From Candidatus Desulfofervidus auxilii (GTDB lineage Bacteria; Desulfobacterota; Desulfofervidia; Desulfofervidales; Desulfofervidaceae), in assembly GCF_001577525.1 (NCBI RefSeq), contig NZ_CP013015.1:1879751-1943750 (forward strand): a stretch of DNA of 64,000 bases, written 5' to 3'. Positions 38,621 through 44,323 of the stretch are shown here, in pieces (the first letter of the stretch is position 1; every line of letters begins with the position of its first letter). Below the pieces are notes generated by a model. It saw only the letters and a list, made by a program, of their open reading frames with translations, made no database searches and had not been told where the DNA came from. The position numbers and the translations under genes are program-made.

Positions 38621-41600
38621 CTATTCTTCAATCCAGAATTGGGCTTTATTAGGCATAAAAATTCCTTTTTGTGTTACCTCTACTACCTGACCGGTAGAAA
38701 GCTGGATATAAGTTACAAGTTTGTCGCCTACTTGTTTAGTAACAATGCTCTCACCAATAGCTGGCGCTCCTTTACCGATACCCACACTTTTTTGAATTTC
38801 GTTATTTTTAAATCCTGTAGCAAGCAAGATAGCCGGTTCTTTGTAAGCTATACCTGCCTTATAATAGAGGGAAAATAGGCTACTATCTCCACCAAAACCA
38901 CAAATATCACAATTTGGTGTAAAGGTAGTAAACATAGCTAGTTGACCTACTACACCTGGTTTAGAAATACAACGTTCTGCCGGACTACCGGTATGAAGTT
39001 CTATCTTCCAGCCATCAAAATCATTAGCAATATGTTTTGCACAATCATCCCAGTCACTATAAGCACCACAGCCACTTACACTAACACTATTAAGGTCTAC
39101 TTCTGTTACTACCTTGTCACCACAATTGCAACCACCACTACCGTCCTTAGCTGGAGTCTTACAACTTCCATCTGTATTATATTCACAACACTCCACCTCT
39201 CCGCCTTCACACATGCAGATATAATCAACTGGCGTTGCCATTACCTGCACATTGGTAGCATCAAAGATATTTGTTACCGCAGTATTACATGTATAAGTTT
39301 TGTTAATAGGATTCCAACAAGTATCTTTCATGCCATAGAGATATTGCTGGCTTTCATCTGTCTTATCTGTTTCCCCAAAATATTTCCCTGTGCCAAAGAA
39401 GCACCATAAGTTACCTGCTTCATCAAAAGTCAGTTCAGGCGAAGCAGTTATAGGGGCACCTGCATTATAAAGAGTAGTAATACTCCAATTGTTTGGACCT
39501 TTCTCATCTGTCAAAATCCTCAGCATATCGCCTATAACATTACTTCCCTGCCTTTTCACAGTGCCACAATAAATGGCATCTACTGTATAATCATGGTCAG
39601 GGTCTACGGCAATGCAATCGCCTATATAGGTGTGATTACCTACCGATAACTTCTTTATTAAGGTACCAGTCTTTAAATCAATTACATAAATGTAACCTCT
39701 ACTTGAAGGTGTATCTCCTTCATAATCTCTTGGGCCAGAGCCTAAAACCACATACCAGTTTCCATTTAGACCATCATCTTGTCTTGGACCTCCTGCATCT
39801 GGATTACCAATCCTTACAATAGCAGGATAGGAAGTAGTAAACCCCAAATCATTATCAGTAAATTCCCAGAGTAAATCAGGATTTTCTGGGTCAGTAATAT
39901 CTAGGGCAAAGATAGAGGATAGACCTACCCTCTTCCCATGAAGTCAGGGGGCACCACTAGGTGGATTAGGACTGCCTCCAAATCTCATTTCACCAATTAG
40001 GATAGTAGCCCAATTTTTGGTTATGGTATTCCCATCAGAGGTGGTAACTGAAATGGGCACACTATGACTTGTTTGGATACTGGCATCAAAAAGCATTGCC
40101 CTCTGGTCCACATAATAGATGTGGCAATCATCATATTTTAGATTAGCCAGATATTTCAAATAAGGCAGGGCATTCATGGGAATATATGCCCAGAGTTCTT
40201 TAGCTATATCATCGCCTTCCAGTTTAGCCTCTAAATCAGGATTTTTTTTGCACAAATACCCTTCATCACAATCTTTATCAGTTTCGCATGTATTATTAGT
40301 ATAACTATTTGAACCTGGGTCATAGCAAAATTTATCTCTTAATTTTCCTAAATAAAAACAATGTAACATACCATCATTTGCCCCCACAAAGAGATAATCA
40401 TCACGTTTAATGGTAGGTGAAGGAGTGCCTTGATGAGGGTCATATACCTTTTGTTCTATAAATCCTGGGTAGCTCTCATTACTTGAAGAATAAGTTTTAT
40501 CCTGATAACGAATATGATAAAGATTTAATGGAAAATGAGATAAAATTCTAGGAGTAGAATAAACAATATCACCTAGTTTCCAAATATGGGTTTCCCCGTT
40601 CAGGGTCAACTCCCTGCTCCTATGTCCGGTTTCATTACATGTCCCTGCATCGCTGTCTAAACATATATCGGTATCTATTCCTCTTATGTAATTGATAATA
40701 TTTGCTGCATCATTGTCATCATAAGCCCTTAAATAGTCTTTTAAGGTAGAAGCATTGGCTGTGGTAAAACCACCACTTAAAAAAGATGAACCATCTGTTG
40801 AGGTATAAATGGTTCTATCGTCTAAATCCCTTTCCCACAATTTTTTACCCACATCCCAGACAGTCTTTACATCAGCTAATGTCTTTGTTTCGGCTGGGAA
40901 GCAAGGAGAGGTTACTTTGCCTGTATCATCTGAGTTATATAGATGAATTTTTGTTTTATCCCCTTCTAGGAAATATTTCATCACTTTATCCTGATCTAAA
41001 ATCAATTTTTTGTCCTCTGTGGTATTTTCTCTAATCTGTCCCCATGCATCTATCCAAAAACCCTTTAAGTGCCCTAACCAAGAGAGTTCTTCATTGGTTT
41101 CCTCATTTGTGAATGCAGGTAAGAAATAGGCCTGGCAGAAGATACCACTACCCCTAGTAGAGGTGGAAAGCATGGAAACTGCAGTACCAGAAGAGGCACG
41201 CTTGAGAATATCGGCAAACACCTTAGAAAGCTTCTCTTCTAATTTTAAGGGATTGGCCACAAAAAAATAGGTATCTGGTTTCCCATCTCCATCTTTGTCC
41301 CATTCATTAGATAAGTCAGGCTTATTATTATTGTTTATATCTTCAAAACCACCCCATTTTGCCGCATACCAAAGAGGGTTTTTTAAAAGGGTAGCTGCTG
41401 AAGAACCAGAAATAGTAAATGTCTTTTCCCAAGTTAAAGGCATACTAGCAACTACTAAAGGTGTATCGCCATCTCCAGGTGGAGGAGCGGTATCACTGTC
41501 TTTTACTGGCAAATAAAGCCCATCTTCACTGGTTCCAGAAATGACAAATCCCAAAACCTGGTCTATGCATCCAGCAGCATAGTCTGAACTCAAGGTAATT

Positions 41601-44323
41601 TTGACTTGATTAGCAGGCAAGGCAGGATCACAAGCATCTCCCACACAATACTCATATTTTACAACGCTATCCATATCATGGTCTGCTCCTTGCTCAACAT
41701 CTTCAAAATTTATTCTAAACTTTCCATGAGTAGGTGTAATCTCTGTCACATAAAAATCTACAATCTGATTAGAAGGACAGTAAGCATTAGGAGAACAATT
41801 GCTGATAGTTAAACCTCTATTAGCATCGTATGTCAAGATGCATTTTTGTGCGCAGTAATTATATACATTAAGGCATCCGCTAACAGATTTACCCACAGGA
41901 ACCAGAGTAACGGTATGCTCGCCCACTTGAATCTTTATTTCAGGCACAGGAGAAGAAAGGGCTACACTATAGGTAGTTACATTTTCTGCCTTTGTGGGGT
42001 CAGCAAAATTATTTTTAAATTCCGTATGTCCATAATAAGCAAGGGCCGCTGAATAATAACTACCTTGTTTGGTAGGTTCTTCAGGACATAAGCCTCTAAC
42101 CTTACCCAGGTCTGAGACATTTTTAGAAGAACAAATAAAATCGTATACACCATTACTTTCTCCTATAAAATAATTTGCGTTTGAAATACCTTCCTCATCC
42201 CCTATGGTTTTGGCTAAATCAGATACATCTAAATCAGAAAGGTCACCTGAATAACTTTCAAAAGAACTTCCAGGCACAGTATCAGAATCATAACTGGGAT
42301 TGATATCACTGATAATTACTATGGAAGGCTTAGAACACCAGGGAAACAATTCAGGAGGCTGAAGGGTATTTCCACCCTTTCTAATACCCCAATCAGGCTT
42401 AGGGAGGAGTAATCCTGTATCATTAGAACCACTATAAGTAAATTCTGATGTAGGACTTTCCTTACCTGCAAAATACCTCAAAGTTTCATAAATCATTTCT
42501 GCAATGGGATTGCCCCACATGCGGCACTCGCCTTCATTTAGGGGATGGGTAGTAATCCATCCACAGGTATAGCTTCCTTGATAGCTATAATCGGAATATC
42601 TAAATCCTACTGTTTTTAACCTATCTAGAGTGAGTATAATGTTACCTTCGGTATTTTCCGAACTTTGGAATATGCCTGTCTGGGAATTTATCTCATCTGA
42701 AATAGACCATATATTTTTTCTTAGCACCCCACCACTTAAATTTTTGGTGTAAGAGCCGGTTATCAATCCAAAATAAAGTTTGGCTTTATCTACACAAAAT
42801 CCTTCACCAGTTCCGCAATCACTGTCTGTATTGCAAGATTTATAACTTACAGAACACACTTTTGTTCCATCCCCTTCTCCAAATTTTTGTAAAAGTCCAA
42901 TAGGTTTATAATTTCCATTGGGATACTGTTTACAGTTGGTTTCAACACCCACAGATGAATCACAAACCTTTACTCTAACATAGTATTCACCATCTGGTGT
43001 GCCCAAACTGTTGTCACAAACAGGCCTTTCTTTTGTTGCCCATTCCCATATCCTATTAGATTTATTCAGTAAAACCCTTATCCTGTGAGGAGCACCTTCG
43101 CTGGTAGAAGTTACACAAAAAAGGTGTCTTTCACACTCAACTGTTCCCCCTCCACTTGCGGGTTCACCAGTAACAATAAAATCCCTGGTTTTTAGCCTAC
43201 ATGCATCATCTATATTAGGTGCACGAATATTTAAAGTGCTACTTCCAAATTTTGTCCAAGCTGTATCACCTGGTTTTTTATACCACACAATTACACCATC
43301 ATCTCCATGGTTTTCGCGCAATCTTACTATAATTCTATGCCATCCGGTGGAAAGATAGATATTTCCACTATGACTATTCTGGCAACTTTGACAAACAGTG
43401 CATCCACAACTTGAACATCCACAAAACCAATGACCTCCATAATAGTTTGCCACCACTATACCATCAATCTCTACTTCTGAGCCATCGTCAGAATCAATGG
43501 CAAATTGCCAAGTGCCGGCGGAAGTTACTTCAAATTCAGCCACAAGCAGATAATTCCCTGTTTCAATTCTGTTTCTGTTTGTGTAATTATTAGTAGTATC
43601 CATCTCAGTTATGTATGAATGACTTGAATAATGACACAAGGAGTAGGAATTTAATAACTCTTCATGGTTATTTCCATATACTCCGCTTTGGTCATCATCA
43701 TATATCACAAATAATATCTCACCTGTTTTATCCCAGCTTACAGGTGTGGTGGGAATGGTGCATGAACCTGAAGGTGGATCAAAAGGAGTGAGCAGCCTAG
43801 TATCATCACCAAAATACTCCTTTCCCCAGCTATGAGCATCCTGAGGGATATAGCCACCTTCTAAAACTGTCTCTGATGAAGAATCCGTGCTTCTATATCC
43901 TCCATAAAGCACCTTTCTTAAAACATCCATCCTAGACATAGAAAGCCAGTTCAAAAAATTTCCGCTCCATTCATCTTCTCCACCACAATATTTATTAGAT
44001 GTGGTTCTGGTAGGAACAAATTTAGCAGCGGCTCCAGAACCTGTATATTTGTAACATTTATAAGGGTCAAAATATCCATAATAGTCTATGGAGTGTTTGT
44101 AGCCCACATCAAGCAGTCCATCTTCATCCAAATCTGAGGCATCATTATAGGCCTCATAATAGAGTTTATGGTCTCTTCCCATAAGAAGCATTACCAGAGG
44201 TGGACCTTGAGCTGAGATAAAAGGAGGCACAGCACAATAATTATCCATGGTTCGAGTGAAGGCCAATCTTCCTCCTATTAATGATATAAAACTTATAAGG
44301 AAAATAAATAACATTTTTTTCAT
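38621..44323 (-). CDS. pilY1: PilY1-like type IV pilus adhesin, single frame with in-frame UGA (candidate selenoprotein)
   Basis: A 1900-codon frame read as one gene, with TGA as codon 1460 (39946-39944). A signal peptide (MKKMLFIFLISFISLIGG) is followed by a PilY1 N-terminal region (PPLVMLLMGRDHKLYYEAYNDASDLDEDG). A PA14-like domain lies at roughly residues 190-375, with a Cys-rich loop CGCSSCGCTVCQSC at about 300. The C-terminal PilY1 beta-propeller runs from about 1290: WATILIGEMRFGG before the TGA, then IFALDITDPENPDLLWEFTD and GYIYVIDLKTG after it. A second Cys-rich region lies near 1620-1660. PilY1 acts as pilus-tip adhesin and calcium-dependent pilus regulator in studied species. The downstream half has no ATG or ribosome site, so it is not a separate gene. 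A nonsense mutation cannot be excluded, but the SECIS-like stem argues for selenocysteine. Confidence 0.85.
39914..39946 (-). promoter_or_regulatory. UGA codon plus SECIS-like stem-loop in pilY1
   Basis: On the minus strand TGA (39946-39944) is followed by 18 bases, then GGTC at 39925-39922. The stem AGAGGGTA (39933-39926) pairs with TATCCTCT (39921-39914), 8 bp including one G-U, leaving GGUC as the loop. The E. coli fdhF SECIS has, as I recall, the same GGUC loop at the same 18-base distance. The bulged U of fdhF is not evident here; the G-U pair three steps below the loop may replace it. Confidence 0.7.

Follow-up and report, generated by a model that had tools for sequence, protein, structure and literature searches.

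The in-frame TGA of the pilY1-like gene

The question raised by this locus is whether a TGA codon inside a pilY1-like gene ends the protein or is read as selenocysteine (Sec). The gene lies in the window, a stretch of 64,000 nucleotides from the genome of Ca. Desulfofervidus auxilii (HotSeep-1), a heat-loving bacterium that partners archaea in the anaerobic oxidation of methane. Features are listed in Table 1. Analysis of the 1,900 codons of the pilY1 frame revealed exactly one stop, the TGA at codon 1460, and neither frameshifts nor further stops. Upstream of the TGA the ORF encodes 1,459 aa; the downstream piece has 408 aa if read from the first start-like codon, a TTG at 39847, 97 nt downstream of TGA-1460. 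Between the TGA and this TTG, 32 codons specify a conserved stretch of the propeller (GLSSIFALDITDPENPDLLWEF); the sequence upstream of the TTG contains no Shine-Dalgarno-like run. A preliminary description of this DNA had claimed a single in-frame TGA, continuation of the propeller over the 32 codons after it and a downstream TTG without a ribosome site, and all three claims are confirmed.

Table 1. Features of the pilY1 locus (positions in the window) and the predicted peptide across residue 1460
Feature	Position	Strand	Description
pilY1-like gene, predicted Sec-PilY1	38621..44323	-	1,900 codons, one in-frame TGA
TGA codon 1460, predicted Sec codon	39944..39946	-	identical codon is TGA in G001
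Upstream part	39947..44323	-	1,459 codons: signal-like N-terminus, N-terminal half, first propeller strands
Downstream part	38624..39943	-	440 codons: remaining PilY1 propeller, under purifying selection
bSECIS-like hairpin AGAGGGUA[GGUC]UAUCCUCU	39914..39933	-	folding of the RNA after the TGA; counterpart in G001
Small exported-like ORF, 102 aa	44320..44628	-	overlaps pilY1 start by 4 nt (ATGA)
Predicted tryptic peptide spanning residue 1460			FGGSPNPPSGAP-U-LHGK

The Pfam family T4P_PilY1 (PF05567) matched residues 1465-1668 with 53.5 bits (cut-off 28.1), and a structure model of the C-terminal 655 aa showed the PilY1 propeller fold with a mean pLDDT of 83.5, matching the fold of the P. aeruginosa PilY1 C-terminal domain (3HX6) with an E-value of 2e-21 and a TM-score to the target of 0.63. 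The PF05567 match directly after the TGA and the agreement of the C-terminal model with 3HX6 indicate that the TGA cuts one domain. The gene product is very probably a single uninterrupted PilY1-type protein that is exported and would carry Sec at UGA-1460, and we infer a pilus-tip location for it. In the window TGA serves as an ordinary though infrequent stop, ending five of the 50 long ORFs, pilY1 included. Downstream of pilY1 lies an ATP synthase operon, and pilin operon context is absent. One readable propeller match was found in the genome (one contig of 2,540,211 bases). The 102-aa ORF at the start of pilY1 is 84% identical to a counterpart adjoining pilY1 in the relative G001 and has no match in Pfam or NCBIfam.

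TGA conservation and selection in relatives

The genome of Ca. D. auxilii (G000) was compared with those of four relatives from the same family (G001-G004), of which G001 belongs to another genus. The pilY1 gene of G001 has a TGA at exactly the codon equivalent to 1460 in a frame of 1,657 codons that is otherwise open, and the two proteins share 66% identity. Thr occupies this codon in G002 and G003, Thr or Val in further close relatives, and PilY1 matches in G004 are weak and partial only. Across the phylum, 204 of 395 genomes have a PilY1 match; among the matches listed (about 200 genomes with a match), a TGA inside PilY1 was found in G000 and G001 only. As the two TGA-containing genes share ancestry, they are not fully independent witnesses.

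Comparison of the part after the TGA between G000 and G001 revealed a dN of 0.26 and a dS of 1.50 (dN/dS about 0.17), and for the first 33 codons after the TGA a dN of 0.18 and a dS of 0.55. The post-TGA part is under purifying selection. A dS of 1.50 means that synonymous sites downstream have almost reached saturation, and yet the protein, the TGA and the hairpin have been retained.

In the upstream part, dS between the two genes is 0.66, below the value for the downstream part. Among the relatives examined, the N-terminal half is common to G000 and G001 only, the others having a different N-terminal half, and the G001 protein lacks about 210 residues (about 187-399). The lower upstream dS, the differing N-terminal halves and the gap in G001 suggest recombination or domain exchange.

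Putative bacterial SECIS downstream of the TGA

Folding of the RNA after the TGA revealed a hairpin with an 8-bp stem and a 4-nt loop, beginning 10 nt past the UGA with its loop 18 nt past it. The G001 counterpart, AGAGGGUA[GGUC]UACCCUCU, likewise has 8 bp and a 4-nt loop 18 nt beyond the UGA. In the E. coli K-12 fdhF gene a GGUC loop also lies 18 nt past the UGA, so loop and distance are those of the pilY1 hairpin. The SECIS stem of fdhF carries a bulged U, which the pilY1 stem does not have. Published constraints on bacterial SECIS elements (bSECIS) are a loop of 3-9 nt, a stem of 4-16 bp, a spacing of 16-37 nt, a G within loop positions 1-2 and a minimum free energy at or below -7.5 (PMC13188914); the hairpins of G000 and G001 alike fall within all of them. 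Among 4,535 TGAs from sampled parts of the same genome, pilY1 TGA included, 24 (about 0.5%) were followed by an equal or better hairpin, and 0.24% of the 4,535 matched the energy of the G001 hairpin.

The one G-U pair of the stem is a G-C pair in G001, by way of a change from Ser to Pro at a position where 66 of 70 aligned proteins have Ser. This single substitution hints that selection may have acted on the RNA over the protein at this site. The GGUC hairpin is absent from orthologues having Thr or Val at the Sec-aligned codon, and an Rfam search gave no SECIS match. The motif TGA-N17-AGGTCT by itself is not rare, with 0.55 occurrences expected per window, and its weight lies only in place, stem and conservation.

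Components for Sec decoding

Analysis of the G000 genome revealed a tRNA-Sec with a tca anticodon (UCA), SelB (392.8 bits) and SelD (392.5 bits), the last with an in-frame TGA at SGUAAK. SelA, SelB and SelD were all found in G001-G004, with a TGA in every SelD, so that all five family genomes have an in-frame TGA in this gene; SelD production would therefore itself depend on Sec insertion. In both G000 and G001 the TGA of selD is followed, at about 20 nt, by a different hairpin, CCAGG[GGA]CCUGG. Proteins scoring above the SelB family cut-off occur a second time in three relatives (G002:C57:5727-7571, G003:C15:3854-5695 and G004:C36:54577-56439), and G000 and G001 have only one SelB-like protein each. 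The tRNA-Sec of G000 (G000:C1:1096001-1116000) is found among three near-identical transposase-like copies holding short N runs.

In surveyed bacteria, SelB and SelC form the signature of Sec decoding and always occur with selA (PMC1273633). Matches to selA were found in G001-G005, including all four family relatives, and none in the readable part of G000, where at least 40 kb reads N. The search for Sec machinery proposed in the preliminary description thus yielded tRNA-Sec, SelB and SelD, but no selA in the readable genome. The G000 contig reads N over 1783601-1824000 and also at the samples 1765001 and 1775001, not at 1750001, and about 9 kb separate selB from the end of the N stretch. The distance between selA and selB is 2.4 kb in G003; in G001 selA adjoins rho, and the same spot in G000 is without selA. 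A small gene constantly next to selA in the relatives is also absent from readable G000. The N stretch near selB, the proximity of selA and selB in G003 and the loss from view of the neighbouring gene together indicate that selA is probably located in the unreadable stretch. With 40 kb or more of N close to selB, gene absences in this assembly are unreliable and that of selA is uninformative; the missing SelA was accordingly rejected as a refutation of Sec insertion.

Residues aligned with the predicted Sec

In the structure model, the Sec site is predicted directly after a conserved Pro (Pro1459) in a loop between propeller strands (model residues 201-225). Position 1460 is occupied in the aligned homologues by Thr, Val, Ile or further residues, or falls in a gap; 0 of 69 have Cys there. 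It had been expected that Cys and UGA would exchange at this codon; UGA occurs in two genera and Cys in none of these homologues. What stands of the earlier interpretation is a PilY1 selenoprotein with Sec at 1460, supported by TGA conservation, hairpin, purifying selection after the TGA and the presence of tRNA-Sec, SelB and SelD; the Cys/UGA exchange does not. A Cys pair (GGAC...CVKTP) is frequent in the Sec-site loop of related PilY1 proteins and absent from the G000 protein. A Cys/Sec pair in this loop was considered and rejected, the CVKTP Cys lying about four residues upstream of the aligned position. Both TGA-encoded proteins have 13 Cys positions in common, predicted Sec included.

The occurrence of Thr, Val or Ile, and never Cys, in homologues means that Sec would be no replacement of a known redox Cys. 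A Sec at a non-Cys position, as the alignment predicts, is unusual for selenoproteins. Redox chemistry of Sec at the pilus tip is speculative, and is offered as a hypothesis because the active-site Cys is not there in homologues.

Probable Sec insertion and competing explanations

By far the likeliest reading of the sequence data is Sec insertion at codon 1460 of PilY1, to which we assign a probability of about 0.88. The hairpin 10 nt past the UGA would act as a bacterial SECIS, its GGUC loop would recruit SelB carrying Sec-tRNA(UCA), and Sec would be inserted at UGA-1460 instead of termination. The inserted residue would sit in the C-terminal propeller, in the loop between two strands and right after the conserved Pro. 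What it does there is the weakest step: the preferred, though doubtful, guess is a solvent-exposed selenol making a reversible selenylsulfide or metal contact on the adhesin of a strict anaerobe that lives attached to archaeal partners. That Sec arose at a non-Cys adhesin site where selenium tunes protein length or arms the partner-contact surface with a selenol is an unlikely proposal.

Genome-wide reassignment of UGA was rejected, as other genes end in TGA and Trp is not what aligns with codon 1460. Reading of UGA-1460 by a near-cognate tRNA (e.g. Trp), with the hairpin merely stimulating readthrough and Sec not inserted, would agree with the lack of Cys in homologues, and the inserted residue is not readable from sequence alone; yet the genome encodes tRNA-Sec, SelB and a SelD whose gene contains a TGA, and the loop and spacing of the hairpin are those of a known SelB-binding element, which leaves this explanation very unlikely. 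Slightly less probable again is a true stop, which would leave either a pair of neighbouring genes or a PilY1 in two pieces, the second restarting further down. TGA is normal as a stop in the genome and a TTG is available 97 nt downstream, but this TTG has no ribosome-binding site, the 32 codons ahead of it are conserved propeller sequence, the split would cut what is modelled as one propeller fold, and all other relatives have a single frame. The absence of the TGA from most relatives might point to a sequencing error or to decay of pilY1, an explanation rendered practically negligible by the identical TGA in the independently assembled genome of another genus, by purifying selection on the post-TGA part and by the otherwise intact 1,900 codons.

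A variant compatible with Sec insertion is a selenium-gated switch, in which low selenium would give a stop at the UGA and a product missing most of the propeller, and sufficient selenium the full adhesin, Sec itself being perhaps structurally neutral. The predicted Sec lies in a loop where relatives have Thr or Val, so that chemistry there is not obviously needed, and a product ending at the UGA would be without the greater part of the conserved C-terminal domain. Against this, some termination at UGA is general in selenoprotein genes that are no switches; we regard the switch as distinctly improbable.

Comparison with known proteins and significance

The C-terminal propeller resembles PilY1/PilC, the type IV pilus tip adhesin (PF05567; P. 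aeruginosa PilY1 C-terminal domain, PDB 3HX6), in sequence and fold. The Desulfofervidus protein differs in its predicted Sec in an inter-strand loop, in an N-terminal half common to G001 only among the relatives compared and in the lack of a pilin operon. Like bacterial selenoproteins such as SelD and the FdhF of E. coli, the predicted Sec-PilY1 is encoded with an in-frame UGA in a genome with Sec machinery, the GGUC loop being placed as in fdhF; unlike them, it would be a large exported adhesin, not a redox enzyme, with a Sec site that has no Cys homologue. A TonB-dependent receptor identified by deep-Sep (PMC12013277) is also a cell-surface selenoprotein candidate in Desulfobacterota, but its family has Cys-containing homologues, whereas the PilY1 site has none.

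Most known selenoproteins are redox enzymes whose homologues carry Cys. Search methods depend on Cys/Sec pairs (PMC13188914) and would miss Sec at a site held by Thr or Val in relatives. No literature linking PilY1 to selenoproteins was found in a search that left aside the work of Haft and colleagues (2023, 2025) on new families, and recent selenoproteome reviews make no mention of pili. The sequence evidence makes Sec-PilY1 a candidate for a new family of selenoproteins.

For the syntrophy between HotSeep-1 and ANME-1, PilY1 is listed as an adhesion protein of possible importance (PMC10553843), although the locus meant there may differ. If true, the Sec reading would add to the cell-surface selenoproteins a kind not reported before, and Sec-PilY1 makes an effect of selenium on attachment to the archaeal partner a testable question.
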